A DNA stretch of 64,000 bases from Amphibalanus amphitrite. Lineage: Eukaryota; Arthropoda; Thecostraca; Balanomorpha; Balanidae. The DNA is taken from the NCBI RefSeq assembly GCF_019059575.1, contig NW_024881857.1, forward strand, positions 62,001 through 126,000, in the 5' to 3' direction. A program made the position numbers and the translations under genes. The notes under the pieces are model-generated. The model searched no databases. It saw only the letters and a list, made by a program, of their open reading frames with translations, and had not been told where the DNA came from. This document shows, in pieces, positions 21,101 through 64,000 of the stretch; the stretch's first letter is position 1, and every line of letters begins with the position of its first letter.

Positions 21101-22305
21101 CAGAGCTGCGAAGTGTTGTTGACGGTGTTCATCCGGCGGTATGCCAGTGTGGCATCTCTTCATCTTGCTGATCCATGCCGGTGGCTGCCTCGTGGTTGCT
21201 GGGCTGGCTGAGCGGGGTCTGGCAGCGCGCGTGGGTGGCGCAGCAGCTGGCGAGCTCCGACTGCGCGCGCCTGCCGGCTCACTGTCCGGTCCTCCAGACG
21301 AGTGGTGGCTCTCCAGACGTCTGATCTGCCGAGGGAAACCAGGCGGCAAGATGCCGAGCTTCACGCAGTCGTGCCACGACAGGAGAGGCGTGTGAAGTGA
21401 CTCCATGACAGATATCTCGGCTGAGTGGCTGACGTCTCCAAGAAGCAGCGTCAGGTTACATGTCCCCATGCAGTGCATTTTCCGTCCATCAGCGGTCCAC
21501 AGTGTCGTCTTCGACGGGCGCAGATCGTCCAGCTCGACGCCCAGAAGCCTGGCTTGGTCTCGTGATATGACCGAGACCTCTGCACCGGTATCAGGGGTCC
21601 AGGTGGTTGGAATCGGTCGCTGACCCCGATACATGGTCTCCAGTTCTATGCGTGGGGAGCGCTTCACGCTGCTGTTCTTCAGTCGCACATCTGAAACGTA
21701 TACGTTCAACAGCGACGCTGCTGTTGAGTCTGCCTCTTCATCCTCCTCGCTTCCACTGATCAGATCTCCGTCTCCGCTGATGCCGGCCACCCGATTGCCG
21801 CCAGAGCTCCAGAACTGCTGGCGTCGCCGAGAGGTGGCGCTGGTTCTTCGAGCCTGATTACCATAGGTGGCGCTGTCGGCGCTTCTGGTTCCAGGGCCAC
21901 GGCTGCGGCCACGCTCCGCGCGCGGGGGCGTGAGCTCGTCACTCCGCGGTCGCTCATGGTCGTGGCGAATTCGCGGCAGACTGCTCCCCGTCGTGCGCCG
22001 CCCGCTGGCCCGGCCTCGGCAAGTGACCGCGAAGTGGTCGCGCTCACCGCAGCTGTTGCAAGCGCGGCCCAGAGCAGGACAGCGTCTGTCATCGCTGTGC
22101 TCCGCCGCGCCGCACCGGCGGCACCGGCTCAGCTGGATCGAGTCTTCACTGGCGAAACGTCGCCGGTTCTTCTCTTGACGGTAGCGAGATATCCGTCCGA
22201 CCGTCCCTGACTGCGTGATCTCCTGATTGTTGTTGGTGGCGCATTCACAGGCACGACATATGTTGTGAGGGGGGCTTAGGCCGGTCCTGTAGGCCCTTCG
22301 TTACC
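18185..22305 (-). CDS. Gypsy gag C-terminus (zinc knuckles) and Pol polyprotein
   Basis: One minus-strand frame is open from about 22305 to 18185. At its start (22050-22140) two zinc knuckles are seen, a CX2CX4HX5C and a CX2CX4HX4C. Next come an aspartic protease (DTGAE, about 21590), a reverse transcriptase in which the usual YIDD/YVDD reads VVDDML (about 20510), and RNase H (TDAS, about 20080). Last is integrase, with an HHCC zinc finger (H..H...C..C, about 19250-19350) and a DDE core (ADYF, TDGG, and E in NGHAEA). Domain order PR-RT-RH-IN is that of Gypsy/Ty3 elements. No stop interrupts the ~1370 codons. Translation would replicate the element by reverse transcription in cytoplasmic particles. 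The N-terminal gag is missing, so this copy would need gag supplied in trans. Confidence 0.93.
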
Positions 22306-46400: not shown

Positions 46401-49400
46401 CAGAAGTAACCGGGGTAGACACCCAGACATCGTAACATACCCGAATCACTTCCTGCTAAACAGCGAATTTCTCAACCCTCGCCGGCCGGGGGGTGGGGGG
46501 GGGGGGGTGCAGCCCCCTGATAGTTTTTTTCGTGATAGCTCCGAACACGCCGGCGATACAGCTGAAACCTGGCATACCTGACCTTTGATTCAAATCAGAT
46601 CTTGTGACACCAACCGCATTTTCAGGTCAGGTCACTGATCTATGACGTCATAAGTGAACGTCCTCTGCACGGCCCTCAGATGTCGCAACTTCGCAACGCC
46701 CTCAGCGCCAGAGGAACTTCCACTGGGAGATGAAACTTACAGGACGTAGTATCCTCCATAGGTCTCACAACTTGCATATCTCGGATTTTTTTCCCAAAGG
46801 TCACATGAGGTTAGGTCGGTAACGTGACCTCACCATTGTAATTCAATGGGGAAAAATGAAAGCCACTATTTTGGCGACAGGAGCGATCTGAAACTATTCT
46901 CAAGCACACGGATTCGTGATTTCATGCACTTCTTGCAAGGTCCAATGCTTTGCTTTCGCACTGATGACCGTGTGACGTAGTTTATGACGTCACTAGGGTT
47001 AAGTGTTTTTCGTTAAGCGTTTTTGCGAAATTATTTATTCAAAACCGAGCCCGTGCCTTGGGCCACTTGACCTGACCTTAGAGGTCACCGGTTGACCTGA
47101 GGCCTTAAAATCGGGTACCAGTCGCTGCGTCTCGTAACGGCGCACACGCTCCTTTTTTCCGCGAGTGTCTAGCTTCATCAGAAGCGAAATGACTAGGGGG
47201 TCGTACCACCACCACCTCCCCCCCCCTCGGCCGGCGCGTATGTAGAAAACTAACAAGTCCGGCGAGGGTTAGATATTGTAATAAACAAATCATTGAACCA
47301 AAAATAACATTAAAATATCCACAAATAGGGTCAGTCAGTGTGGTACACGTCCATCGAAGTAGCGTCGCTCCGAATCCAGACCATAATTTGCATCCCCTGG
47401 TTCGGTAAGCTTTCTAATATGAGGTGCTGTGCCCTTGACGTGACGCACCTGTCCTGCAGCTGTTCGCCGGCGTCTGTGACGGCGCGCAGCTCCCGTACGT
47501 CCGGCGCGTCCGCGTCTCCGGTGAGCAGGTCACAGAGGCCGGTGACGGCGGCCACCGGCCGGCTGGCGTCCCGCACGGCGCGCACCGCCGCCTGCCGGGA
47601 ACGGGGGACGTCAGCTGTATAAATAAGAAAACCGTCCATTCTGAAGACAGCATGAAACAGCAATGATCAAAAACAATTTCCACCAGTCTGCGGAAAGTAA
47701 TGAGAATCCCTTCAATTAAGACCCCCGGTAACGAGGGTCCCTGAGCGTCCCCAGCGACCCCGCCCACTGACTTCGGTGTCACGGACGGCGGCGCGGTGGG
47801 TCTCCTCGTCCGCGTCATCAAACGCCAGCGGCTGGTCCAGCGCTGTCTCAATATCAGACAGAAGCGTCTCTAGCTCCGGTCTTTGGCGCTCAAAATCAGT
47901 CACCGTCTGTAACATGGGCCGGGGCGGGTTTTCCGGTCACTGGGTGAGCAAGCGGACGGCCCCACTTCCCGGGTAGATAGACAAGGCCGCACGTACAGCT
48001 GCAGACAACCAAAACCACCAACATGAACTGATAGATACGGCTCACATTGCGATAGCTACGAAACAAAACGCATCCGTTCCGTCGTTTTCATCCTCAGGAC
48101 AATCTTAGACTTAGACTTAGACTTATTTCGTCGACTCCATCTAGTAGATGCAGGATCATTTCTGATCGTCTTCCAATTATGTTAGCTGTGTGGATGATAT
48201 AAATTTTCAGGACATCATAGTTGGGAGGACTCTTTAACAGTTACTCTTCTTGGTTATATTCTCAGTGAGTTCCTTGCGCACACGGGCTTGGTAGATGTAA
48301 TGGATGATCAAGCTTTGTGGCTTATCGGCGATGATGATAAGTTCTGCTGCTGGTAGCGTTCTGTTCAAGATAGTTTCGTATATTTTTTGAGCAGCTACTC
48401 TATCGTCTTTCAGTTTGTCACATTCAAAGAGCATGTGTTCCAGAGTTTCAATGGCATTGCGACATAATGGACAGACAACAGTTTCTTTGTGCCTTCTAAC
48501 CATGCTTGTGGCCACCAAAGAGTGGCCCGTTAGTAGGACAATTTTGGTTAGTGTCGCTTGTCTGGTAATTGCGCTGTACTTGCTTGCTGGCCAAAATGTT
48601 TTCGGCGCCTCGTACTTTTCGGTTTGTGGCAGTAGCGAAAGCCAAAACAAACTTGTCATATTCTCTGCTGTGTTCCTGATGATTTTTGTCATACTTTGAT
48701 CCACTGATGCAGATGCTAACTTGTTCCATGCTGTCCGCGGTTGGTCTATTTTTTGATTAGCCAGAATAGAGAGGCTTGGTAAGTTCAGATGTTGGAGCAA
48801 TGTGTCCCATTGGCGCACAAGACTCGTGGTTCGATCAGCATTGACTGCTCCATGGGTGATGATATATCTGGTTAGAGTGTGTTCCTTCGCAGCTCTCAGA
48901 AGGAAACCTATGAATTGGAGTGCGGTTCTCATTACGAGGCTTGTGCATGTCGGTGCACCCAACATCACATATGTCACCATTTTTTGCGTTTTGGTTGGTA
49001 AACCTTGGATGAGACGGTAAATGCGCATGAGCATTCCTTCTAAGTACATGATATCTGTTGGTGAAAGGGATGTAACTGCTAGGCTGTAAATTAGAACCGG
49101 TTCAGCATATATTCTCCACGTTGTATAGTGTGACATCGGATTGTCCATTTTGAGGTTGATTCCTTTCTTACACTTAGCAAAAAATGTTCTTCTTGCTTTC
49201 TTCATGCATTCTTCTATCCTTCTCTTTGCTGGACTTCTGGTTGTCATAATGATTCCTAGGTGGGTGTATTCATCAGTTTGCTCTATTGATTCAGTGCCAA
49301 GCGTCCACTGTACCGGAGCTGTCCTGCCAAAGACCATTATTTTGGTTTTTGATACGTTATATCTATAACGCCACAAGCAACTATGGTTGTAAGCGATATC

Positions 49401-52400
49401 AAGCATTTCTTGGAGTTCGTTTGGATCTGTGCTTATGAGTACTTCATCATCGGCGTAAGCGATAACTGGTACTTGTTTACACCCTATCTTGGCTCCCTTA
49501 TGTGATTCCAGCAGCATGCGTATCTTGTCTTCCATAAATAGGATCAGCATGCTCGATGATAAGACGCCTCCCTGTTTGAGCCCTTGCTCTATGCGACCAT
49601 CGGTGGATACAGTTCCTCCAACTTTCACTTTGACATAAAACTCTCGATACAAGTTGCGCAAAATGACGATCAACCTTGGTGGCATGTTGGCGCATATGAG
49701 CTTGTAGATTACCCCGTTGTGCCAAATAGAGTTAAAACACTTGCGTACGTCGAGAAATGCAACATAGGTCGTTTTCCCAATGTCTCTATTAGCTGATATG
49801 ACTTCTTGGAGAACAAAGTTTGCTTGGAGTGTCCCTCTACTTTTTTGATACGCAAACTGTAGTTCTGAGTAGATACCAGCCTCGACCATCTTTGGGTGAA
49901 GTCGTTTCACGATCAGTATCTCAAAAACTTTACAGAGGGTGGTAAGGACAGATATGTCCCTATAGTTATCAGTCTTAGAAGGATCGGTTCCATGTCCTTT
50001 AAAGACCGGGGTAACTAATCCAAACTTGAAGTTATCTGGGATTTTGCCAGTATTAATGATTTCTTGCATAATACCTGCTATTGTTGCGTTTGCTATTCCT
50101 TTTGCTTCTTTCAAATGTTCTGCAGTTATTTCGTCGAATCCTGGAGCTTTTCTATTCTTTAGATGGTATATAGCTTCATCAATCTCGCTTTCGTCAATCG
50201 GGTCCAATTGGTCGAGACTATCAAAATCAGCTTCATATCTATTGCATATGTTTTCTACTGCTGCATCTACTGCCTCTCTCCACTTTTCATTGAAGGCACT
50301 GGATTTGATCGGTTTACCTGTGTGGACAAAATGAGTCAAAAAATTATGTGCAATCTCATCAGGTTCTAATATCTCTGTACCATCATCCACGATTCTTGGA
50401 ATTGATGTGCTTGTTCTATGCTGTCGCATTGCCAAAAAGTATTTATTTGACAAGTTTTTACATTCAAATTCCCTTTCTGTGTCTTCTGCTTGCTTCCTTG
50501 TCAATTGATGTGCTCTCTGTGCGTTTATATAGTGTCTTTTGTGTTCTCGAAATATTTGCTCAGCTTTCTTTTTCTCACACTCGGGAGCTGATTTCCACAT
50601 TGCTTTAGCCTTGAGACATTTTTTCCTATGCTCTGTGAGTTCATGATTCCACCAGTTACTAGCTTTGTTTTTCTTGCGTTTTTTCGGGAGCACTTGTGAT
50701 GCTCTATTGAAGGCTTCATTTAATTCTGCAACACTGGTGATATCTTCTAAGAGATCATCCAGCTTTCTGATATTGTTCCGTAGTCCCTTCTCTTCTTGCC
50801 TTTTCCCAGTTTATCTTTGCATTTTTTGATGTACCTCGCCCACGAGCAGTTTTCAGTAGAATAGCTGAGATTACTAATTGAACCGGTTCATGGTCCGATC
50901 TATTCAATGCGCTTCTATCAGATATTTCATACTCTTTAACTAAGTATCCATGAGCAGAGTCAACAAGAAAATAGTCAAGTAACGATACTGGCGTCGTATC
51001 TTGGGTATAAAAAGAGCAAAGCTCATCCAGTTGCGTCTCCACCGGGATCATAAGGTCATGATCATCGATGAGGGCTGAGGTATACTTTTTGTTGTAGTGG
51101 ATGTCTTTTCGTAGGTCAACATTGAGGTCGCCTCCAATTATTACCATTCTATTTGTACTATGCTTGTCTATAATTGCACTGATCCTGTCTATTGTTTCTT
51201 GGTACTCTAAGACTTTCTCTGTAGTTGTTCCGGTTGGCAAATATACAGCTACGATGAGAATTTCGGGGAGGAAGCCGTGTAGGACTGCGGCTACTATTCT
51301 TGTGCTGCCTGTATCGCCAATAGATAATAGATTCAACTCTTCTTTCGCTAGGATGGCAGCTCCACCGTGTCCTCTCACGCCGGTTTTATCTATCGATGCA
51401 TAGTCATAGTACGCGTCGTAGCTTGTAGCGATCGTTGTGTACCCGTCTCTTCTCAGGTCGGATTCTTGGCTTGTTTTCAATGTCCATGTCTCATTCAGAA
51501 GAATGATGTCAGCATGGACTAGTAGTGAGTTCGTAAACTCATCATCGGGTTTGTAGCCCCGACAGTTGTACTGAATGAGGTGAAGTTTTTTGGGTGACCG
51601 CAGAGTTCTGACTCCACTCTGTATTTTGAATTCCAGATGACATTTGTTTGGTTTCTACGGATTCTTCCATTTGTGGGCCGGGCTGTGCTCTTGTTCCATG
51701 TGCGTTTTTCTGTGATCATTGTTGCGGTATTTCTGTTTGCCACACTCCTGCTTCGAAAACTTGCATGTTCTCTGTTTATTGCGTGACTCTGGATCCCTAA
51801 ACGGGTTTGATACGCATTATGTTTTTCATGTCCTATTCCTGTTGCAGATGGGCCGTCATGTTTGAGATGCTGTTGTTGTCTGGAGTAGTGGGGTCGATGT
51901 GAGTACCAAGGTTTCTCGAATCTTGGTGTCTGTCCAGCCTGGAAATTACGACTGTGCCGGAACAGAGGAGCTTGATATGAATCTGTCCTGTTTGTTGGAT
52001 TCATTGAGCTACTTTGTTGGATATGTGACAGTGAGTTGTTTTGCATATGATGCTTCTCCCGATTAGCTGTGTGCTGTTGGTCTTTGCTCTGGCCATACTT
52101 AAGAGCATGTCTGTAGTCCATGTTTTCACGTTTGATTGGCTGAGGTGATGCTGCTCTGGTATGCTGCATCTAAAAGGATTAATGCCGTGTCCCAGTTGGG
52201 TTGATACGTAGCGGCTTTCGTTGCCAGTTGAGGGGCCCTCTTTCCGCTTAAGGTTTGCTTCAGGTGGTCTCAGTTTTCCAGTTGAAAGGTGGGATGCTCT
52301 CCGTTCATCGTCCTGTTTATGGCTTCGAAGCTTCTCTTGTCCGCTGTGTGGTTTCTCATTGGCGGTTTGTCCCTCCCATTTCTTCTGAGCGCATTCCACT

Positions 52401-55400
52401 TCTTGCTTACTTTTGTCACCCTCTTCACTCAAAGTTTTAGTTTCGTCTCGACTAGTGGTTTGCGGTTGGGCTGTGACCTTACAATCGTCATGCTTTTGGT
52501 TACTCAGCCAGAGTAAGTACTCGGCACATGGCTGACACAGCATGTGTCCAGGCGGGTGTCTAGTGGCTAGGTTGTTTTGGTTGCTTCCCGGAGATGTCTG
52601 GTTTTCTTCTTTTGTCATGAGAAGGGCGAGCTGTGTTCTGAGTTCTTGATTTTCAGCTTGAAGTTGGGCAACTTGCGCCACGAGTTCCGCCTTCCGCTTC
52701 ACTGATTTCGACTTCTCCGTTTTTGTTTTGTTGATGTTGGGGCATCGGTCGTCATGTCCTGCTTGATAGCTGCCTGAAGTTTTTTGATCGTCATTGCAAT
52801 CATCTTCTATTCGCGGCTCATAAGAGCCGCTTTTTGCTTCGCTGGATGTCACGTTTTTGTATCGTAGATCGATTACCTGTACTTCCTTGTCGATTTCCCT
52901 GATCTCTATGGTCTCATAGAAACCTGGTGATTGACAGGTTTCATGGAAACCTTGCAGTCGGCAGTCACTGACTTCATGGAGACCATTTTCTGTGAGATGA
53001 TACACTCCAACTTTCTTCAGCTTTGTTGCGCATACAATAGCAACAGCTTCTGGTCGTTCTTTTTGAATATGACACTGGGTATGTATGTCGACCGAGCTCA
53101 TGAAAGTGTCATACATTGGGTGTGTATGTATCCAGCCCTTGATCACTAGCTTCTCTTGCTGCATTGTCTGTGCTAGTAGTTCCTCGCTCGTGCTCTCGCA
53201 TGTTGCTGTCGTTCCAATTTGTTCCGGGATGACCAAGTGAGTCACCTCGTTAGTTTCTGGGCTGTCATCTCCGGCAAGGTATCCAAGAGTTTCTATGTTT
53301 TTCTCTGTGTTGGCATGGGATAATGCCAGAAACGCGTCAACTGTGCTTCCTGGTACGCAGAGCTGCGGTGGTGCTGTCGCTGGTTTATTAGCGTGTTCCG
53401 TGCTTTTTTCAGACGTTATCCATTCATTTTTGGTGGGATCGTATCCATGAACGGAGTCGTCGGAATCGCTGTCTTCATTAGTTGCCATTACAGGTGACTT
53501 TATCTTCTTCTTCTTTTTGCCAGCGATACTCCACACTTCATTACTGGTTGTGTCCCGATAGCCGGCACCTTTCATTTTTTGGTTGGCGTGAGTCTTGGTA
53601 TTCTAAAAGGCTCTGACACAAGATTACGATAATCTGAATTTGTAGTAATGAAAATGGAAGTGTGTTGCGACAATATGTTACTGGTTTTGCTAGTTTACAG
53701 TAGCCTTCTTTGAATTAGCTCGAGACTTATCACAGAAAATCAAGAACAAAAACGTCGTGGTGTTGACCCAAATTTTTTGCAATTGGGTCAAAATAATCGA
53801 TTTTTTACAGCCCTATATTTACCCAGTCCCACATTTAGTTCCAGTGAAAATACAACCAAAATGATCTACGTTAAATCACGATTCGTTTGGTATAAAGGTT
53901 AAGTCAAGATGTGGGATAGCTACGCTAAAACACGCATTACACGGGAGCACTGTAAAGCACGTCTGACACCAACACGTCACCGTTTGAACGCCCAATCAAA
54001 TCCTCCTACTCCACGCCTCAGCACCGTGTTCCGGGCTGGACGGGCAACTTTATCCCATGCGGGAAGCTCCTATTGGAGCACGCCCATAGCCGGGTGTATC
54101 AATCAGGGCTGGGTGGCCTGTCCAACTGATAATGGGCTATCGGCTAAGCCCAGATGACTCACTAGGGTGCCCGCCCAGACCAATATCTCCCCCTCCCCCC
54201 CAATCCCTATTTTCCTTCCGGCTCTGCAATGGTTACAATTGCCCGCAAAAGCCCCGCCCCCCAAAAAAGAAACAAACAAAACGACATTTGATTGAGTCTG
54301 CCTGAACTGGCCTACGCACACATGAGAATACATAATCATCCTCCACCAGACACTAATTACGAATCACGATCTGCCGCTCAGCGAACGGTTCTCTACTGCA
54401 TCCTTCTACTACGCTACTATTACGCTACTACTGCACGCCTGTCCCTCACCTCCAGCAGTGAGCGCAGTTTGACCAGGCGGGCTCGCCGCTGCCGCTCTGG
54501 CTCCGTGTCGCTGTCGGGCCGTCCCGGCTCGTCGCCGGGCTGCGGCAGCTCGCCGGTGAGCTGCGCCAGCTCAGCCGGCAGCTCGGTGTCGATCCGCGCC
54601 AGCAGCGCCGGAAGGGAGCGCTCCCTGCTGACCAGCTGCTGCCGCTGCCACTCCAGCAGCTCCGTCCTGCGGCACGGAGGCCAATCTCATTCCAACAGTC
54701 TGCCGTGGCATACCACACACACTAGGGCCACCTACTTCGCTACTGACAATCACTACAGGATACAACCAAAAGGTTATTATGGAAAACCTGAGGACGCATA
54801 GTTCACAACTAAACAAGTCTGCCAGCAATGCATGCTATCGCCCAGAGCATAATTGGTGTTTCTCTGCCACCGAATGTTGAAATAGGAGTACGTTGCAGTG
54901 ACCCCAAATTGATTTTGAACTACCAACACTGCGCTCGTTCAGCCCGCTCTGAGGCTGCCCCGACCACCAGCCCCCACTCACCGTATCCTGCCCAACTCGG
55001 CTGCCGGGTCGGCGGTCTCCACTGCATCACCGCCCAGCCGCCGCAGCAGGCGCAGCACCAGCAGTCGCAGCCGCAGCTCGGCCAGCTCATCGGCGGCCTC
55101 GCGACCGGCCTCAGCGCTGACCAGCTGCTGCACGGGCCGCCACAGCCGCTCCGCCTTCTCCAGCTCCCGCTCCAGACGGTCGAGCTGCTGCGGCTCGAGA
55201 GGCGGCGCCGACTCGGCTTCTGCCGCCGCCAGTGCGTCGCGCACGCCGGCCACCACCTCTCCGCGCCGCCGCCAGAACTCGGACACGTAGGACACATAGT
55301 TGGCCCAGGTGGCCACGCCGGCAGACAGGTTGGCCTGGCGCCGCTCCAGGGCGGCCAGCGGCGCCGGCGGACGGCCGCCCGCCGCGCCGGCCGCTTCGGC

Positions 55401-58400
55401 TGCCAGTCTGCGCAGCTCGGCGAGCCGCCGGCGGCCGCGCGCCAGCCGCCGACTCAGAGCGGCCAGCTGAGAGCGGCGCGCCGGCAGCTGGCCGGGCGGC
55501 AGCGGCACCGCCTCCAGACGCAGTTTGTCCGCGTCGGCGCGCCGCAGCCACACCAGGTGCCGGCTCAGGAGGGCCGTGTAGGCGGCCCAGGGAGCCGCGC
55601 GCTCACGGCCGGCGCGCAGCTGCGCCAGCTGCCGCAGCACAGCCGCCAGCTGGGCGGACAGCTGCTGGCGCGCGGCCGGCGACAGCTGCGGAGCCGACAG
55701 TTCGTCGGCCAGCTGATCGCGGTGCAGACCCAGAATGGCGTCCGCGACCTGTCGGTACAAAGAGGCGTCACAATCCAGTAGAATCCACCGCAAATGGCAA
55801 GTCGCCATACTCGTTCCGGTATGCCGAATACTCATTCAAAAATAGTAAGTTAAACATCAACGGACTTAAAGATTGACACACTATCGGATCAAAAAGTGTT
55901 TTACGGTGCAGCAGAGTACATAATGCTGGCAAGCGCCACCAATGAGCTCAGACGTTTCACGTGACTGACCTGTGCCTTGAGAGCCTGCTGCACCACTCCG
56001 TCCGCGGGTAGCGGCTCAGCCCCGGGCTGCGGCACCGACACCAGCAGGTGGTGCTGGACCTCGGCCAGCTCGTCACCAGCGTCACCAGCCAGCGCCTCCG
56101 ACAGCACGCAGCGGTAGTGACGCACCAGAGCGGCCATCGCCAGTTCCCAGTCCTGCAGTAGCTCAGCGGGCTCCGTGTCGCCCTCCGGGCCGACCGCCGT
56201 GCCGCACAGCTGGTGCAGCTCCTGGCCGAGCTCAGCTGCCGCCGCCAGCTGCCGCGTCAGCTCGGGCAGCTGGCGCAGCTGGCGGGCCTGCTCGGCCAGC
56301 TGCAGCCGCCGCCGGCAGCCGTCCAGTCGCGGCCGCAGCCTGCGCCGGCGCTGTGCCAGCTCCCGATGTCGGCGCAGCTCTCCGTCGAGCCAGTCGAGCC
56401 GGCGGCCGGCGGCGGCCAGCCGGGCCGAGAGGGCGCGGCACGCGGCCGCCGACACCCGCGCGCAGCTGACAACGGCGTCCAGCCGCTCGGCACAGTCGGC
56501 CACCTCCTGCTGCCCGCTGGTCAGCTGACCCAGCAGCGCCTGCACACACAGACACACACGTCAGTCACAGTTTCTCAATGAGATCACACCTCACACAATC
56601 AAGAAGTGAAAATAATACCAATGAGAAGTGAGTCAACAGTGAGTACAGCCAATCCATCACAAGTCAACTGATGTGTACATGACAATAGACAGAGCTGATA
56701 ACGATAACCTCCTGGCTCCCGTCCTGGCACTGACCTGGTGCTCGGCCTCAGTCCAGTCCTGGTGGCGCTCAGCAGTTGCCGGCAGGCCGTCCAGCCAGGT
56801 GTCCAGCGAGTCCAGGCGCTCGGTGAGACGTCTCCAGTCGGCAGCCGCTGCTCGGCACTGCTCGGCGGCGGTGGAGAGCGCAGTGCCCGCCTCGCCACGC
56901 AGCTGCAGGCACCGGTCGGCCAGCGGCGGCAGTAGCGCCGAGCCGGCCCCGCCAGACACGGGCAGCGGCACCGGCAGAGACAGCAGGCCCTCAGACGACT
57001 CCTGTGGGACGGGGAGGGGAGTCCGCGGTCAGGGCGGCCGCAACATTCGCTCTACTATTCACACCGCAGTTACACGAACCGGAGCAGTACGGCACTCGTG
57101 CAAAAAAGGAACGCTTCTTAGATACACATGACAAAATTAGTCGCGTTAACACCGTAAAAATCATTGACCAGACCTGTACCGATAACCCCATAGCAGTCTT
57201 GACCAGTGAATCTCTCAGACGACCGTACGCCTTGGTGTCTCACCAGTGTTTGCTCCGCGGCCTTCTGCAGCTCCAGTTCCGTGTCACAGTCGCCACAGCG
57301 CTGGCCGGTCGCCCACTCGGCCTCCACGCGCTGTACAAACTCAGTCAGGTCGTCTAGCTGGTCAGACAGCCCCTCCGAGGGGCGGCACGGGTCTGTCAGC
57401 GGCCGCAGGTCGTCACGCAGGGGCTGGAGCGCGGCAACCTCCGCTGCTGCAGCCTGTAAGAAATAGAGCGGATCAGTCAACGGTGAGGTGGTGGGAGAAA
57501 TATTGCTTCTTTGTGGGGGGCTGTGGGAGAAATAACAACTGCAAACCAATACTTCATGTTCCTGAAGAGTGAAGAGTAAGCAGCTGACTCAGGCCCTTAT
57601 CCCGCTGTCCAAGGCTCTAAGTCCTGCCCCCGCGCGGGCCCACTCACCGTCACTGCGGCTACACCGGGCCACTGGTGGGCCAGCCGCGCGGCCGCTGCTG
57701 TCAGCGCGTCCAGCTCGGCGCGCAGGGCGGCTCCGGCCGGCCGGTGCAGTCTCTGCAGCGCTGCCAGCCGGGCGGCGGCGGCGGCCGTGTCCGCGGCCAG
57801 CGCCTCCAGTCGGCTGCGCAGCGGCACCAGCTCGGCGAGCCGCGCGGTCAGCCGGCGCCGCAGCTGGCCGGCGCGCTCGGCACTCTCGGCCGCCGCCAGC
57901 CGCCACTCGACCGTGTCGACCGGCGGCTCGGCCTCCCTGCCGGCCCGCTCCAGGTCGGTGACCCGGGTCAGCAGCCGCTGCAGCGCCCCCACGGCCGGCG
58001 CCAGCTCGCCCTCGGCGGCCGCCTGCAGCAGCGCCTCGGCGCGCCGCTCCAGCCGCGCCAGATCCGAGCCGTCTGCGCCGCGCAGAGCCGCCGCCAGCTC
58101 GCGCAGACGCCGCTCGGTGACGGCTAGTCTCGCGCGCAGCGACGGCTCGGCGGCGGCCGGCAGCAGGGCGAGCGCAGCGTCCAGTCCGGCACCGGCCGCC
58201 GCGCAGCGGTACTCCATGATGTCTACCTGCTCCAGTACAGTCTGCGCGGAGAACAACCGGCGTCAATCGCTGGGGAACTAGTGGTGACCCATCATCGGCA
58301 AGGGGATTGCAGATCATATAGTCACAACAAGACAGCGTGGCATCAAACCAACGGGTGACATTAATGCTTATGCACTTAGCCTAGTCACAAGCTAGCTGCG

Positions 58401-61400
58401 ACATTAATGACTTGGTAAGCGCCCGGAAGCCAGCGATTTCCTAGCTTTGGAAACCACCAGCTACCCACACTGTGCCCCCTGCCTACACTGCTCTCACCTC
58501 CATCTCCTGTTCGGTGAGCGGCCCCTCATTTCGGCGTCCCTCGGTCCGTCTCAGCCAGCCGTCCACCTGGTCGCAGTGTCCCCGCGCCTCGGACAGATGG
58601 CGCTGGCAGTCGAGCAGCCGGCTGACGGCTGACTGCAGCCGGTCGCGCAGCTGCACCAGCTGCGGCCGCAGCCGGGCCAGCTTCAGCTGGGCGCCGTCGG
58701 CAGTGACCAGCTGCTGCAGCCGCGTCACCAGCAGCTGTAGGTCGGCCAGCTGGTCGCAGCCGGCTGCCGCCTCCCGGTGCATCTCCTGGCCGGACAAAGG
58801 GGACAAACGTCACATTCATGGATGAATAATTCTCTTCACATGAAAAATCGAAACTTCATTGGCGATATTCCGGAACAGGATGGTTAACACGACCAGCACA
58901 TAATTAAGACCGAGATTAAGACTAGGACTAAGACTAAGACCAGGATGGCGAACTACGGACTACGGAGCCTAAACGATAGATTCCGTTACGTGAATGCTAG
59001 ACTCAATACACATAACTTGAGTGCGTTCCATAAAATTCGACTTAACACCATGTCCGTTCGATTCCCCAGCCCTGTCCACCCGTCCCCGCCACTCCTCACC
59101 TCAAGTCTGGTCAGCAGCTCCGGGTCGTCCGTGTTGACCTCGTCGCCCAGGTAGGTGGCCAGCAGGGCGCTGCCCAGCGCGCGCTCCGCCTCCAGCTCGT
59201 CCAGCCGCAGGTCGGCCTCCTTCCAGAGCAGCAGCGCCGCGCTGAGGCGCGCCAGCAGAGCGCGGTGCGGCGCCGCGGCCGGCTCCGCCTGGCCCAGCTG
59301 GGTCGACAGCTGCCGGTACAGCGGCACCAGCTCACGCAGCTCCGGCAGAGAGTCGACGCGGAGTGGCCGCTCGGCGGTCGGCAGGCGCGCCAGGCCGGCC
59401 GGCGGCCCGCTGGGCGGCGGCGAGTGGTGCAGCGCGGCCGGCGCCGCCTCCAGCGCCGCCTGCGTGTCGTGTAGCAGCGCCTGCAGCGGCAGCAGCGCCT
59501 CAGGCAGCCGCTCCCCCTCGGGGCCGGCCAGCCGCTGCGCCAGCAGGTACTGACACCAGAACTGGCGCTGCTGACCGCGCAGCCGGACACGCGCCTCCGT
59601 CAGCTGCTGCTCGCGCGCCGCCGGGTCCTGGTCGGCCGACACGGTGGTCAGCCAGCTCTGCAGCTGCGCCAGCTGCCGGCGGCTGTCGGCCAGGCCGGCC
59701 TCCAGCTGGCGCCGGTCGGCTCCGTGCCGGTCCAGACTGCGGCGCCGGGCGGCCACCAGGTCCCGCGTGTGTCGCACTGCGGACGCCAGGTGGGCGACCA
59801 GCGCGCGCAGCAGCCGGCCGCTGTCCTCGGGCAGGTCGCGCAGCTGGTCCAGCCGCGCCGGCAGCGGCTGCAGCGCCTGCTCCATGGCCGCCAGCTCCGC
59901 CAGCTCCTCCAGGAGTCGGTCGTCGCTGGCGGCCGGCGTGGCCAACAGGTGGTCGACGCGCGCCATCAGCCAGAGCAGCGCGCGGCTCCAGTCGGAGCGC
60001 CGCTCGGGCCAGCTGGCGCCCTCGAGCAGCGGCGCCGTCAGCCGGCGCACACGCGCCTCGCCGCCGTCCGTGGTGGACGCCGGCAGCAGCGGCGGCGGCG
60101 CCACACCCGCCGGCCGACCCAGTGCCCCGTAGGCCGTCACCAGCGGTAGCAGGACGTCGCGTTCGGCCGCCGGCAGCGACCCCAGCTCGGGCAGCGGCGG
60201 CAGCACCAGCGCCGGCTCCGTCTCCTCGTCCTCCTCCGTCGAGACGGGTCCGTCCAGCAGGCTGTCCTCCGTCTGGGAGCCGTCCGAGCGGCCCGCCATC
60301 GAGTCGTCCGGCGGCGCCGCGCTCACCAGCACACTGTCGTTGACCAGGAGAACGGTCGGTTTGATCGGCGACCCGGCAGGAGTCCGCGTCGGGTCGGGGT
60401 TCTCGTCTGGTGAGTAGATCTGCGATGAGTCTTGCAGAGAGGATCCGCGCTGCTTATACGGAGTGCTGGATGGGATCTCAGGACGCAGTCCAGTCGGCTC
60501 GTCAAACTCCGGCAGCGTGGAAATAGGCTCAACGTCGTCAGTAGAAGAAGGCACAGAATCTTGTACGATTTTCTGTGTTGAACTCTCCTGGGTCTCTTTC
60601 TGTTCCGTTATTGATTTCCCTGGTGGTTCCAGAGCTGCCTCCTGTCTCGACTCGCTGTCTGCCGTGTCACCTGCTCCGTCCACAGTTGCCGGTTCAGCGG
60701 AGGGTGGTGTCTGGTCGGCGCCGGTCGCCGGCTGGTCGCCTCCAGCCGGCTGGTCGCCTCCAGCCGGGTCGGGTCCGTCGAGCCAGGTCAGCGTCGGCTC
60801 CCCGACCGTCTCCTGCAGCAGTACGGTCAGCCCGCCCACCAGACAGGTGCGCCGTGTGACGGGCACGGTGCGCCGGCGCGGCCGCCAGCCGCCCGGCGCC
60901 GGCGCCATCTCTAGCTGCGTCACCAGCACATGGGTCACCGTCACCGGCCGGCCGTCGGCGCCCGGCTCCGTCTCCGTGCGGCTCTCCACCTGCACAGGAG
61001 CCGTCAGCGCGCCCTCGATCAGGTGCGCCGACAGCGACACGAAGTGACTGTCGTCCGCCGGCCGCTGCACCACCGCGCCCAGCAGCTCCTGGTGGTCACT
61101 GCGCGGCGGAGACTCCGCCCGGCCGCTCAGCGGTGCAGTCAGCTCCACACGCCGCCGAACCACCACCGGCCGGCCGAACCGATCCTCGGTGCGCACATAG
61201 GCGGTCAGCTCCGCGCGGCGCAGCGGGCCGCGCGCGCCCTCCACGTGCTCCCAGCGCAGCTCGGGCTCCTCCAGGGCGCCGGCGCGCAGCTCCGCCAGCG
61301 CCGCCGCCACACGGCCGTCCAGCTCCGGCAGCAGCACCTCGTCGGTCGGCGTGGCAGGCGCCGTCGGGACCGCCTCTCTCTGCTGCTGCCTTGCAGGGGT

Positions 61401-64000
61401 AGCGTCACCGCTGGGCTCGGTTGAAGGTTCTGGAGCTGGCGACGCCGCTGACTGAGAGTCTGGTAGCTGCTCAAGAGAAAGTGTTTCTTTCGGATCTCCT
61501 TCGTTGGTGGTTGAATCGATCGAAGCTGCAGGCTGTTCAATTTGCACCAGTTTCTTGGTCTTCTTCGGTTTCTTCTTTTTCTTCTTGCCCGCTGTGTCGG
61601 TGACTGGGGCCGGTGCTGCGGCTCCCTGCACTGAGTCCGGCTGAGCGGGGGCGGGGGCGGGGGCGGTCGGCGGCGGGAGGAGCACGGCCGTCGGTCCCTC
61701 TGGCCAAACCTCCACCACCAGTCGGTCTTCAGTGGCGACCATCCGCCGCAGGATGGCGGCCGTCCAGCGCACCTGTCCGCCGTCGGGCCTCCTCTCCAGC
61801 AGCTGGACGCAGGCGCGCCGGCTGAGCGACGGCCGGTCGGTGTCGGCCCTCACCTCGTCACCCATCGTCTCCGAGCTGAGAGTGTCGACGACGAGCCCGC
61901 GCGCCGCCGCGCGACACATGGCCGCCGCGGCCTCCTCGAGCTCGGCGTCGGAGGGCTGCGGGCCGGGCAGCGGTCGGACCGTCTGTACCACCCGGCCGCC
62001 GCGCGCCGGCACCAGCCGCTGGCAGCGCGTCGCCGACCGGCTCACCTCGCGGGGCACGCCGGCCGCGTCCGTCACACTCTCCGTCAGCGTCACTGTGGTG
62101 CGGCGGACCGTCACCGTCACCCCGTCCACCAGTTCCTCACTGTCAGAGACGGACACCGACGGCTGGCTGCACAGAGCGCCCGACACGGACGCCAGCGCGT
62201 CCTCGAAGGCAGTCTCTCGCGTGATCTCTGGGACAGAGGTGGACAGCACGCGCCGCGACACCGGCTCCACGGTATCCTCGGTGACAAACATCCCGTCGAT
62301 CACATACGAGCGCAGCATCCTGACGAACACGCGCTCGTAGACTGTGACGGCGGCAGCCGCGTCTGTTATCTGCTCCAGCACTGTCACCGTCTCAGTGTTG
62401 GTCGTCACCGGCCTGCCGCTCTCGTCCCGGTCCTGCTCCACGGCACTGGTGACGCTGGGTTCTCCGAGCATCACACCCTCCAGCGGAAGTGGCAGCGGCT
62501 CGGTGGCGCTCAGAGTCCCGCTCAGCTCACTGTCAGTCACACCAGTCACCACCGGCCGGCCGAACACCTCCCCCACGCGCTGACACCTCCTCACCGAGCG
62601 TCTCAGCGGCACCTCGGCGGCGTCAGCGCGCGGCAGCATCTCCTCCGTGGTGACACTCACTGTCCGCAGGGTCACCGGAGTGCCGTCAGGACCGCGAGTC
62701 TCTGTCACCTGCGTGTCTGTGACGGGGTCGCTCACCAGCCGACCGCGGGCCAGCGGCAGCGCCTCCCCCAGCAGCTGCTGCTCAGTCAGCTCCGGCACCG
62801 ACACGGCCAGTGTCACCGTCCGCATCGGCTCGGTGTACTCCTCGACAGTCCAGCGGCCGTCCGCCGGCACTACGCGCGCGATCTTAGTGAACACGGTCTC
62901 TGTGATCGCCCGACCGGCTTCCTCCACAGGAATCTCTTCGCGCGCCGTGACGACGATCCTGTACACAGTCACCGGACCGGCGGCCTCGTCCACCACCTGG
63001 CTAGGATGGACGCGCACCTCCGGCTCCGACAGCAGCGTGCCTTCCAGCTGTGACAGACACTCACCGACAGCGGCGTCTCGCAGCTCCTCTGCAGAGGGTA
63101 ACGGTTCTGGTGGCGCAACGGCCGCCGCCACAGTGTCATCAGTCTCGCCGGGAGGCGATGGAGTTCGTTCAATCGTTTCTGAGTCTAGGTCAGTCTTAGA
63201 AACGGCTTCATGCGTCTCCAGTGGCACTTCAGGTGACTGCGAACGCGTCTCCTCAGTGTTCCATGAGGTTTCCTGCTTCACTGCTTCTGCTGCGTTCAAT
63301 GAATCCTCTTGGATGCCCACTGAAGTGGCTTCAGCTTCCCTTACAACGTCTGAATCCAAAGACACTCTTCCAGGATCCTGACCACTTTGCAGCTGGGCGT
63401 CTTCTTTCTGTTCACTCTCTATTGGGGTCTCTTCGTTTGGCGGTAAGTTGGAATCATCCTTTTCTTTTGGGGAGCCATCAGCATCCACAGACTGTGCACG
63501 AGCATCTTCAGCTTTTTCCGGACTGCTCACAGCGAGGTCGTCTGGTACGGACGTCTGCTCCGTCTGTCGTGTGGTCTCCTCCGGCCGATCCCGCTGTCTC
63601 TGCTCCTCCACTTTCACGATGTTCTGGGCTGCTTCCAGGACCTGCTTCACCAGCCTACCGCCCGCCTCCACAGCCGGCAGCTGCTCATCAGCGGCTGCTT
63701 TCTCTTCCGGCCCGGCGTCAGACGGACTCTGAGCAGCAGGCGTCTCTAGAGGGACAGCACTGGTCACAGGTTGGCTTTCCACCGCCTGAACCTGGTCTTT
63801 GCCACTTTCCGGGAGAACTTCATACTGTTCCGGTCCGTCGCACTCCTCGACGACAGTTTTATCGTCAAACCGGTATGCCAGTCTGTGCTTTATGATGGTA
63901 CGTTTCACGAGGTTGGCAGTGCCCTGGTCGTCTAGATCACGTTGTAGACCCGTGATGGTGAGGGTGTTGAGAGCGGCTGGAGAGTCCACCCTGCTCAACA
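43274..64000 (-). CDS. Nesprin/Msp-300-like giant LINC-complex protein, 3' part (15 exons, 5' end outside)
   Basis: Minus-strand exons, 5' to 3': 64000-59100, 58785-58498, 58241-57648, 57453-57244, 57001-56735, 56539-55970, 55748-54982, 54666-54450, 47906-47772, 47591-47449, 46242-45738, 45430-45242, 45004-44441, 44200-43964 and 43495-43274. Every junction keeps phase. All introns are GT-AG except the one after 45242, which starts GC (CAG|GCGAGT). The protein ends in a KASH domain, so it is a nesprin: a tail-anchored outer-nuclear-membrane protein that binds SUN proteins in the perinuclear space and links nucleus to cytoskeleton. Between the N-terminal region and KASH are Leu/Ala/Arg-rich helical segments with a conserved Trp spacing, typical of spectrin repeats. 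Codons are extremely GC-rich, and long antisense frames are artefacts of that. Confidence 0.85.
43964..47906 (-). CDS. Nesprin-like gene, spectrin-repeat exons 9-14 of the window
   Basis: The exons are 47906-47772, 47591-47449, 46242-45738, 45430-45242, 45004-44441 and 44200-43964. They contain helical repeats (LAASWSAVQQLAED, LLGRWEAARRQAE, RLQWELAAWRLEQWL, LAALQSRWDAVSGRL). The 45004 exon starts with an acidic/Ser/Pro linker of about 60 residues before its repeat. The intron before 47906 is 6.5 kb because it holds the LINE; the intron 47448-46243 holds a piggyBac-type MITE. Confidence 0.8.
46472..47272. mobile_element. Intact CCCTCGCCGGCC-family piggyBac-type MITE in a nesprin intron
   Basis: The left end is TCAA-CCCTCGCCGG and the right end CCGGCGAGGG-TTAG; the TTAA duplication is slightly decayed. 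At 801 bp it is the reference copy showing what was interrupted at 16266-31890. It contains AGGTCA repeats and a near-consensus IR1 (AGGTCACTGATCT, one mismatch). Confidence 0.85.
48234..51654 (-). pseudogene. LINE ORF2: APE endonuclease and reverse transcriptase, frameshifted
   Basis: The endonuclease frame is open from 51654 to 50755 and shows the APE catalytic set: QYN, LLNETW, VYLPTG, GGDLNVD, DYFLV and SDHEPV. The RT frame is open from before 50693 to 48234. It contains TPVFKGHG, LTTLCKVFE, AFLDVRKCFNS, GLKQGGVLSSS and the catalytic AYADDEV, and ends with a CPLC...H...C zinc motif. The two frames differ by one extra base near the GGG at 50785-50787, so this copy cannot make full-length ORF2 as written. 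In the intact element the enzyme nicks target DNA and primes reverse transcription there. No RNase H domain was seen. Confidence 0.85.
51519..52169 (-). CDS. LINE ORF1, 3' portion: basic Gln/Asn/His-rich tail
   Basis: A 216-codon frame beginning TAG-ATG at 52169 and overlapping the previous frame by 169 bp. Its composition (many Gln, Asn, His, Arg, Ser) is nucleic-acid-binding-like and reads more naturally than the overlapping end of the JAMM frame. A one-base indel may have separated them, or it may be a separate small ORF. It ends 51519, overlapping the start of the ORF2 frame, and contains the slippery heptamer. Confidence 0.55.
   Translation of the reverse strand: MQHTRAASPQPIKRENMDYRHALKYGQSKDQQHTANREKHHMQNNSLSHIQQSSSMNPTNRTDSYQAPLFRHSRNFQAGQTPRFEKPWYSHRPHYSRQQQHLKHDGPSATGIGHEKHNAYQTRLGIQSHAINREHASFRSRSVANRNTATMITEKRTWNKSTARPTNGRIRRNQTNVIWNSKYRVESELCGHPKNFTSFSTTVGATNPMMSLRTHY
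51585..51591 (-). promoter_or_regulatory. A_AAA_AAC slippery heptamer at the ORF1/ORF2 junction
   Basis: The minus-strand codons CCA AAA AAC of the ORF1 tail frame form X-XXY-YYZ in the correct zero frame. A -1 slip continues as AAA AAA CTT CAC CTC, which is precisely the ORF2 frame just before its endonuclease domain (LHLIQYN). ORF2 has no ATG upstream of that domain after its in-frame stop at 51655-51657, so frameshifting is a plausible way to express it. Confidence 0.65.
52001..53575 (-). CDS. LINE ORF1, 5' portion: AMSH/STAMBP-type JAMM metalloprotease plus coiled coil
   Basis: ATG at 53575, open for 524 codons. Residues ~20-27 are Lys-rich. Residues ~73-238 form a JAMM (MPN+) domain: Glu95 in NIETLGYLAG, then GWIHTHP with His150 and His152, and Ser160-Ser-Val-Asp163, an exact H-x-H-x7-S-x2-D zinc motif. 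The flanks also match the AMSH/STAMBP deubiquitinase family: VTHLVIPEQ, the AVAIVCA strand, and the second zinc site (His165, Cys205, His211, with Cys214 near the place of the family's last His). AMSH enzymes cleave Lys63-linked ubiquitin. A heptad Leu/Ala helix (about 283-315: LVAQVAQLQAENQELRTQLA) and a CxxC...C segment follow. The last ~55 residues are probably out of frame; the better reading continues in the next feature. Confidence 0.75.
   Translation of the reverse strand: MKGAGYRDTTSNEVWSIAGKKKKKIKSPVMATNEDSDSDDSVHGYDPTKNEWITSEKSTEHANKPATAPPQLCVPGSTVDAFLALSHANTEKNIETLGYLAGDDSPETNEVTHLVIPEQIGTTATCESTSEELLAQTMQQEKLVIKGWIHTHPMYDTFMSSVDIHTQCHIQKERPEAVAIVCATKLKKVGVYHLTENGLHEVSDCRLQGFHETCQSPGFYETIEIREIDKEVQVIDLRYKNVTSSEAKSGSYEPRIEDDCNDDQKTSGSYQAGHDDRCPNINKTKTEKSKSVKRKAELVAQVAQLQAENQELRTQLALLMTKEENQTSPGSNQNNLATRHPPGHMLCQPCAEYLLWLSNQKHDDCKVTAQPQTTSRDETKTLSEEGDKSKQEVECAQKKWEGQTANEKPHSGQEKLRSHKQDDERRASHLSTGKLRPPEANLKRKEGPSTGNESRYVSTQLGHGINPFRCSIPEQHHLSQSNVKTWTTDMLLSMARAKTNSTQLIGRSIICKTTHCHISNKVAQ
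53601..54440. other. Nesprin intron sequence, possible LINE 5' UTR
   Basis: No coding feature. The part next to 53600 may be the LINE 5' UTR, but no boundary could be placed. Confidence 0.4.
54450..58785 (-). CDS. Nesprin-like gene, spectrin-repeat exons 2-8 of the window
   Basis: Seven exons (58785-58498, 58241-57648, 57453-57244, 57001-56735, 56539-55970, 55748-54982, 54666-54450). They encode about 780 residues of amphipathic helix rich in Leu, Ala, Arg, Glu and Gln, with recurrent Trp positions such as VEWRLA, ADWRRL, LDTWLDGL, LDWLDGEL and AERLWRP. These fit successive spectrin repeats. All but the last junction are phase 0; exon 55748-54982 ends two bases into a codon, completed by the first base of the next exon. 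Confidence 0.8.
59100..64000 (-). CDS. Nesprin-like gene, large upstream exon with ~95-aa repeats
   Basis: Over 4.9 kb of open frame, continuing beyond the window and ending CTTGAG|GTGAGG at 59100/59099. In order (residue 1 at 63998): an acidic Glu/Ser/Thr-rich region to ~310, then five units spaced about 95 aa apart. These begin near residues 322, 418, 508, 608 and 700 with 'G-x-L-x-x-[ED]-P-x-V', and each carries 'G-x-P-V-T-x-x-T-x-x-V-T' and 'R-x-x-R-[RC]-x-R' strands. A Lys-rich patch (KKKKKPKKTKK, ~806), two further diverged units (~890-1070) and an acidic Ser/Thr linker follow. From ~1270 come helical spectrin-type repeats. The Lys patch could be a nuclear-localisation or lipid-binding site. 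Confidence 0.75.

Follow-up and report, generated by a model that had tools for sequence, protein, structure and literature searches.

AMSH-type JAMM domains carried by LINEs and Penelope-like elements of the barnacle Amphibalanus amphitrite

Can a retrotransposon carry part of the ubiquitin system as its own, and what might the enzyme do there? The question is raised by a long interspersed nuclear element (LINE) of the barnacle Amphibalanus amphitrite, which lies in a stretch of 64,000 nucleotides from contig NW_024881857.1 (positions 62,001 to 126,000; hereafter, the window). An earlier reading of the letters, made without database searches (the sequence-only reading), had assigned to the first open reading frame (ORF1) of this element a JAMM domain of the kind found in the deubiquitinase AMSH, also called STAMBP. 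Here, we report that the domain is of the AMSH type, that its active site is conserved, that several LINE families have retained it, and that it is also present in another class of retroelements, the Penelope-like elements (PLEs). Taken as a whole, the data are probably best explained by an AMSH-derived JAMM deubiquitinase which the elements have retained and which would act in cis.

The ORF of 524 amino acids (aa) postulated by the sequence-only reading is present in the window (Table 1), and its AMSH-type JAMM was borne out by matches in PDB, in Pfam, and among predicted folds. In PDB, residues 72 to 238 best matched human STAMBP (3rzu; E = 7.4e-37), further matches being AMSH-LP (2znr; from residue 74, E = 2.5e-32) and Sst2 of S. 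pombe (1.1e-29). The best JAMM match beyond AMSH and Sst2, an Rpn11-like protein, reached 7e-8, and chains of CSN5, Prp8, and BRCC36 were also far weaker. A Pfam search of the whole frame, as that reading had recommended, returned JAB with 48.7 bits (cut-off, 22.5; E = 8e-13). Structure prediction from the single sequence gave a predicted local distance difference test score (pLDDT) of only 37, and we used instead an AlphaFold2 model based on an alignment of 15 JAMM segments from the window and its genome (mean pLDDT, 83.7). The 24 top PDB fold matches of this model were all AMSH, AMSH-LP, or Sst2 (best E = 3.3e-20; template modeling scores, 0.85/0.87). By sequence as well as by fold, the ORF1 domain is nearer to AMSH-type enzymes than to other JAMM proteins.

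Within the ORF1 protein, the JAMM is fused to a stretch resembling a coiled coil and to a tail of low complexity. A coiled coil following the JAMM had been part of the sequence-only reading; a stretch of this character does occur at about residues 290 to 320, while all corresponding Pfam matches stayed below the cut-off. The MIT/USP8-dimer domain (PF08969) was absent from the window ORF1 in Pfam at E values up to 1 and from the ORFs of loci L026, L029, L033, L035, and L039 at E values up to 0.1.

Is the domain likely to work as an enzyme? Glu95, His150, His152, Ser160, and Asp163, the residues named in the sequence-only reading, are present and were correctly numbered, and the columns of this JAMM motif (Glu, HxH, SxxD) are invariant in 15/15 aligned rows; these rows had been picked for readable JAMM frames, with near-duplicates included and broken copies such as L030 excluded. 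A more extended pattern, HxH-x7-SxxDxH, occurs in all 42 rows of our trees, host AMSH rows among them. The JAMM is likely to be catalytically active. One could also imagine that it is kept as a nonenzymatic module that binds ubiquitin or other proteins, as in Prp8, whose type of JAB domain is structural and has no working zinc site. Prp8-type JAB domains do appear among the weaker sequence and fold matches; however, the top matches are AMSH-type enzymes, and the Glu, both His, the Ser, and the Asp do not vary in the aligned rows, leaving this alternative improbable.

The frame might further be thought to be an exon of a spliced host STAMBP gene that adjoins the LINE, all the more since AMSH is a genuine barnacle gene and long frames run on the same strand on both sides of the LINE. 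We found the host AMSH gene elsewhere, as a separate spliced gene on contig C491 with a near-duplicate on C1333. A tick AMSH protein, P0028, matches the host locus in three ordered pieces, the N-terminal one being weak (E = 5e-4) and containing a stop. Within the JAMM core of the host gene, an intron separates GWIH from THP, in contrast to the element-borne JAMMs, which are intron-free. The exon pieces of the host gene share 69% identity with human STAMBP (62.5% and 76% singly) and 44% with the JAMM of the window LINE. With an intron-free JAMM that recurs in sister LINE copies at other genomic places, a host exon is out, and we give this explanation practically no chance. As a side observation, some arthropod AMSH models carry additional domains, namely, a MULE transposase and a peptidase M24 in P0037 and a sub-cut-off Tc5-type helix-turn-helix in P0028, which are probably gene-model fusions.

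The sequence-only reading had pointed to other copies of the LINE as the place to look for the domain. An ORF1 search of the barnacle genome (807.5 Mb in 2644 contigs) yielded at least 49 matches, fragments included, a lower bound with 82 of 110 candidates scored; a search with the reverse transcriptase (RT) yielded at least 57, with 55 of 7341 candidates scored. Loci L002 to L004 match ORF1 residues 1 to 496 at 96%, JAMM included. We then read 20 genomic regions of 10 kb, ten of which hold LINEs (L021 to L030) and ten a Penelope-type RT (L031 to L040). Among the LINE loci, L021 to L025 belong to the family of the window copy, L026, L027, L028, and L030 form a second family, and L029 stands for a third. 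The second and third families are 50 to 51% identical to the window copy in the RT and 45 to 52% in the JAMM. They differ from it by a PHD finger located upstream of the JAMM in ORF1 (L026, 30.5 bits; L029, 24.5 bits; Pfam cut-off, 24), a domain that Pfam does not list for the window ORF1. The JAMM is also common to the database ORFs P0052 and P0053, with PHD finger scores of 21.8 bits (just under the cut-off) and 30.2 bits, respectively. In addition, the ORF1 of L026 (P0004) matches, along 72% of its length and with 98% identity, an A. amphitrite protein annotated as uncharacterized (LOC122385931).

More distant LINE families, with RTs 29 to 30% identical and frames of 1002 to 1086 codons, are present on contigs C464, C57, C1387, C777, and C293; they gave no JAMM match in the lower-bound ORF1 search. 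The 1.3 kb upstream of one such LINE (L051) hold an ORF without a JAMM.

The second class of carriers is represented by L031 to L040, in which an AMSH-type JAMM accompanies a Penelope-type RT (assigned by eye; L033, L035, and L039 were examined in full). In 6/10 regions (L033, L035, L036, L038, L039, and L040), a single frame of 1035 to 1250 codons begins with the JAMM, placing it in the same frame as the RT and endonuclease (RT-EN); in L031, L032, L034, and L037, the PLE frame is broken. With flanks in common, L039 and L040 probably represent a single locus. A Pfam run on three barnacle PLE ORFs did not recognize the RT and GIY-YIG directly. However, the ORF of L035 (P0003) aligns with P0018, where Pfam detects both RVT_1 and GIY-YIG, at 258/893 identical columns (29%), and we therefore take P0003 to be an RT/GIY-YIG ORF of a PLE. 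A protein-database search with P0003 gave 44 matches, with 7995 candidates scored. Twelve of these (P0007 to P0018) are PLE-type by similarity past the JAMM, 8/12 carry Pfam JAB, and they indicate that JAMM-PLEs exist in other sequenced contigs.

Partial tandem PLE copies were seen among the matches listed, in the L033/L038 and L035/L036/L037 alignments. The hammerhead ribozyme motif is frequent in PLEs, if not universal; Rfam at gathering scores returned 0 matches in 14 loci, as did a regular expression combined with a stem rule. Further JAMM pieces, L041 to L044, are nearest to the PLE type, with L043 showing two PLE pieces, one of the JAMM and one of the RT/EN, that lie on opposite strands and meet head to head. 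L045 and L046, named alongside the JAMM-PLE loci, look alike.

Do the LINEs that carry the JAMM move, and does the JAMM matter to them? L027 and L028 are 99.90% and 99.87% identical to L026 over ~6.98 kb, after which the alignment ends. Both have an open ORF1 (1113 codons) and ORF2 (1284 codons), as does L029 (1431 and 1155 codons, respectively), while ORF2 of L026 is interrupted by a stop. LINE hallmarks were found in the form of dispersed copies, simple-repeat 3′ tails, and duplication-like flanks. The flanking repeats of L027 (12 bp), L028 (9 bp), L021 (9 bp), and L022 (≥24 bp), for which a chance expectation was not estimated, are consistent with target-site duplications; the flanks of the window copy, L026, and L030 share 6-bp words only. 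Regarding conservation, the JAMM is more alike than the rest of ORF1 in 10/10 LINE pairs (45 to 76% versus 22 to 43% identity). In ten PLE pairs, the JAMM (52 to 73%) is about as conserved as the RT-EN (51 to 68%), and both exceed the linker (36 to 49%). The ratio of nonsynonymous to synonymous substitution rates (dN/dS) recommended by the sequence-only reading came to ~0.12 for L026/L029, at a dS of 2.3; for five more distant pairs, the calculation failed through saturation in dS. Selection on the JAMM is supported by its conservation across families.

Two database proteins suggest that the module may travel even more widely. P0041 (943 aa; cluster of 18 sequences) combines a hAT dimerization domain with a C-terminal AMSH-type JAMM in one protein, and P0039 (752 aa; 4 sequences) does so with DUF5641, which we take to be part of the BEL/Pao polyprotein. 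The two may thus be hAT-type and BEL/Pao-type carriers, and they may also be gene-model artefacts. Having been labeled "host" in our first tree, they were relabeled in a later one. In the best tree, the LINE JAMMs (support, 100/99) and the PLE JAMMs (100/100) form separate groups, and P0041 and P0039 group with the LINE JAMMs at 96/92. All element rows fall on one side of a branch with support of 55/73, rising to 91/83 after barnacle host exons were added. A tree holding LINE and PLE JAMMs together was not rejected (P = 0.24; P = 0.42 after removal of the hAT and BEL rows). The trees, which are unrooted and have long branches, are compatible with a single capture followed by sharing as well as with repeated capture. 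They exclude near-duplicates of the alignment (L021, L023, L028, L034, L036, and L038) and partial or JAMM-less rows (P0007, P0012, P0013, P0016, P0018, and P0051). The 10-kb loci L024, L025, L027, L030, L037, and L040 never entered the alignment, and 13 further AMSH-type matches also stand outside the trees (P0020, P0021, P0030, P0031, P0033, P0035, P0038, P0043, P0044, P0046, P0047, P0049, and P0050).

Searches for a source of the module beyond eukaryotes gave little. Scans of viral contigs with the PLE ORF and with ORF1 confirmed no relative, and predicted viral structures gave weak matches that were generic JAB, RadC, or unnamed (best E = 2.7e-6). Neither phages, probed by tblastn with P0008, nor plasmids, probed with P0041, returned anything, and JAB proteins of prokaryotic defense matched marginally (E = 0.007 to 0.009).

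How might the elements use such an enzyme? Hosts regulate both retroelement proteins and DNA-break signaling through ubiquitin. We propose that the enzyme part of an AMSH-like gene, intron-free and without the MIT/USP8-dimer region, would have been retained within the element as an active zinc deubiquitinase, with a preference for lysine 63-linked (K63) ubiquitin chains like that of AMSH. By analogy with AMSH, we lean toward this K63 preference. The enzyme would be delivered in cis by ORF1 or the RT-EN protein, LINE ORF1 proteins being known to bind element RNA. Ubiquitin chains on the ribonucleoprotein (RNP) or on target-site proteins would then be stripped locally, and the RT complex might be spared ubiquitin-dependent turnover or signaling. 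That it is the RNP or the integration site which the enzyme protects in cis is a tentative part of the proposal. Action at the RNP or on chromatin fits with the PHD finger in ORF1 of L026 and L029 and with the position of the JAMM within the PLE RT-EN frame. In contrast, interference with the endosomal sorting complex required for transport (ESCRT), an idea of the sequence-only reading, loses weight, since Pfam did not detect a MIT/USP8-dimer domain.

The main rival is that an active deubiquitinase works in trans, as a counterdefense against host antiviral or DNA-damage signaling through K63 chains. AMSH enzymes prefer such chains, which serve innate and DNA-break signaling, and the carriers span LINEs, PLEs, and hAT-type and BEL/Pao-type proteins, which suggests a benefit independent of any one transposition chemistry. 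Yet the JAMM is in frame with the element's own protein in the PLEs as well as in the proteins of the hAT and BEL/Pao types, an arrangement that favors local action, and we regard action in trans as the less likely reading. A still broader scenario, in which one ancient element-carried JAMM lineage would circulate among LINEs, PLEs, BEL/Pao-type, and hAT-type elements and act as a cis eraser of K63 chains that counters ubiquitin control of transposition, strikes us as rather unlikely.

Several observations weigh against a retained, AMSH-like enzyme acting in cis, the first of which concern its specificity. Most of the second, structural zinc site of AMSH had been reported as kept in the sequence-only reading, and indeed three of the four AMSH ligands are present (His165, Cys205, and His211; we presume ligand roles for His, Cys, His, and His from work on AMSH-LP). 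The fourth, the second His of H-x-H, is missing in the LINE form, where Cys214 follows one residue later (H-x-x-C). This H-x-x-C occurs in 6/6 LINE rows, two of which represent one family (window site, 52934 to 52945), whereas 12/14 PLE rows keep the Cys and the H-x-H. Because of the altered site, the specificity of the LINE form may differ from that of AMSH. Moreover, the AMSH loop HPTQTAF, which presumably contacts ubiquitin, reads HPMYDTF or similar in the LINE form, and the linkage preference could therefore be changed.

Other points of this kind concern retention. In the window copy, the frame breaks lie outside the JAMM, and the domain itself is intact. The JAMM of L030 is split across two frames, and the PLE L044 is broken inside its JAMM. 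L025, which lacks the JAMM, has ORF1 only from about residue 255 onward, and in L024 just the end of the JAMM is left. RT copies on contigs C699 and C1643 had no ORF1 in the expected 2.0 to 2.5 kb, nor did the copy on C71 in 3.0 kb. Together with L024 and L025, these appear to be cut or 5′-truncated copies, and truncation fits the loss of the JAMM; a copy with ORF1 complete except for the JAMM was absent among those read. Hence neither of the two outcomes named as refuting by the sequence-only reading, LINE copies without the JAMM region and an adjoining spliced host gene, led to its refutation when checked. Lastly, selection within families cannot be judged because near-identical copies hold too few changes, four such pairs having ≤5 synonymous and ≤5 nonsynonymous JAMM changes (e.g., 3 plus 3).

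The frame breaks in the window copy and inside the JAMM of L030 are also what one might cite for a recent accidental capture, with the JAMM as a dead passenger. Against this, the JAMM is common to LINE families whose RTs are only ~50% identical, as well as to P0052 and P0053, the catalytic pattern is kept, and the JAMM is better conserved than the other parts of ORF1. We consider a dead passenger very improbable, and retention of the JAMM as part of the element continues to be our preferred explanation.

The window LINE itself has the layout of an apurinic/apyrimidinic endonuclease (APE)-type element, with ORF1 followed by an AP endonuclease and RT in ORF2 (Table 1). In this copy, EN and RT lie in separate frames. 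Since the end of the 524-aa frame (last 28 to 44 residues) is out of register relative to five other copies, and the ORF1 frame of L021 and L022 is open for 694 codons, the window copy must have a frame break near 52.15 kb. The 216-aa ORF that follows looks like the continuation of ORF1.

Table 1. Features of the window LINE (window positions) and contigs of the PLEs that carry a JAMM
Feature	Location	Strand	Basis or remark
APE-type non-LTR (long terminal repeat) retrotransposon (LINE)	48096..53983	-	limits of ~99% blastn identity to L021-L025
ORF1 frame, 524 aa	52001..53575	-	last 28-44 codons shifted out of the frame of sister copies
AMSH-type JAMM/MPN+ domain, residues 72-238	52862..53362	-	sequence, Pfam, alignment, model
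Catalytic Glu95	53291..53293	-	invariant in 15/15 aligned rows
Zinc ligands His150 and His152 (HTH)	53120..53128	-	invariant in 15/15 aligned rows
Ser160 and zinc ligand Asp163	53087..53098	-	invariant in 15/15 aligned rows
Second (structural) zinc site: His165, Cys205, His211, candidate replacement ligand Cys214	52934..53083	-	STAMBP/AMSH-LP alignment, 42-row census
Coiled-coil-like stretch of ORF1	52610..52714	-	overlaps 89-aa stretch, 35% identical in second LINE family
ORF, 216 aa, resembling frame-shifted rest of ORF1	51519..52169	-	residues 481-524 change frame versus five copies
AP-type endonuclease part of ORF2	50755..51570	-	Exo_endo_phos E = 1.7e-5 (50755-51480); 97% identical in L021
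RT part of ORF2	48234..50693	-	RVT_1 E = 3.4e-29; zf-RVT below cut-off
3′ end, TAAGTC-repeat tail (approximate limits)	48096..48130	-	also in L021, L022, L025
L031-L040	contigs C1030, C525, C210, C12, C279, C225, C108, C55, C1311, C1971		PLEs with AMSH-type JAMM

As to the surroundings of the LINE, GC-rich long frames at 54978 to 63998 on the same (minus) strand resemble, by eye, a large repeat-rich host protein; two of them had no match in Pfam. The LINE may sit in an intron of this host-like gene. Elsewhere in the window are a 1201-aa polyprotein of the LTR-retrotransposon type (18185 to 21790, minus strand), with RT, RNase H, and integrase above and protease below the cut-off, and a 1505-aa frame (5591 to 10108, plus strand) with no Pfam match at E values up to 0.01.

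The carriage of the domain by several LINE families and copies and by other kinds of element suggests that mobile DNA may direct this enzyme against the ubiquitin system of the host. A deubiquitinase that is fused to ORF1 or RT-EN, that persists in near-identical copies, and that occurs in more than one element class would make a direct action of transposons on that system testable. For annotation, it follows that an intron-free AMSH match in an invertebrate genome may belong to a transposon. We found no report of JAMM-bearing retroelements among the matches listed in a literature search, with subscription papers mostly outside its scope and Repbase not searched; in two papers where the terms co-occur (PMC3482391 and PMC12910113), the text available is unrelated to such elements.

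Compared with AMSH/STAMBP, AMSH-LP, and Sst2 of S. pombe, its best sequence and structure matches, the element JAMM has the same motif and fold. It differs from AMSH/STAMBP in being intron-free, in having no Pfam USP8-dimer domain, in its fusion to retroelement proteins, and, in the LINE form, in a second zinc site altered at its fourth ligand. Canonical PLEs have RT and GIY-YIG in one ORF (PMC11167929; for the domain order, see also PMC3846280). The barnacle PLEs, which can be aligned to P0018 across the RT and GIY-YIG, have in addition an N-terminal AMSH-type JAMM. Captured enzymes of other kinds are described for rotifers, in which LTR elements and Penelope-like Athena elements carry ORFs for GDSL esterases and DEDDy exonucleases (PMC5408684). 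There, too, one enzyme type occurs in several unrelated retroelement classes; unlike those, the barnacle enzyme is a metalloprotease of the ubiquitin system and is in frame with ORF1 or RT-EN. The only element-encoded ubiquitin counterenzymes that we found in the literature searched are the OTU-like cysteine proteases of Helentrons, whose residues needed for function are reported to be conserved (PMC4067079). In both cases, a transposable element bears a deubiquitinase-like enzyme, but the Helentron enzyme, a cysteine protease of the OTU kind, belongs to a rolling-circle DNA element, whereas the barnacle enzyme is a zinc JAMM in retroelements.

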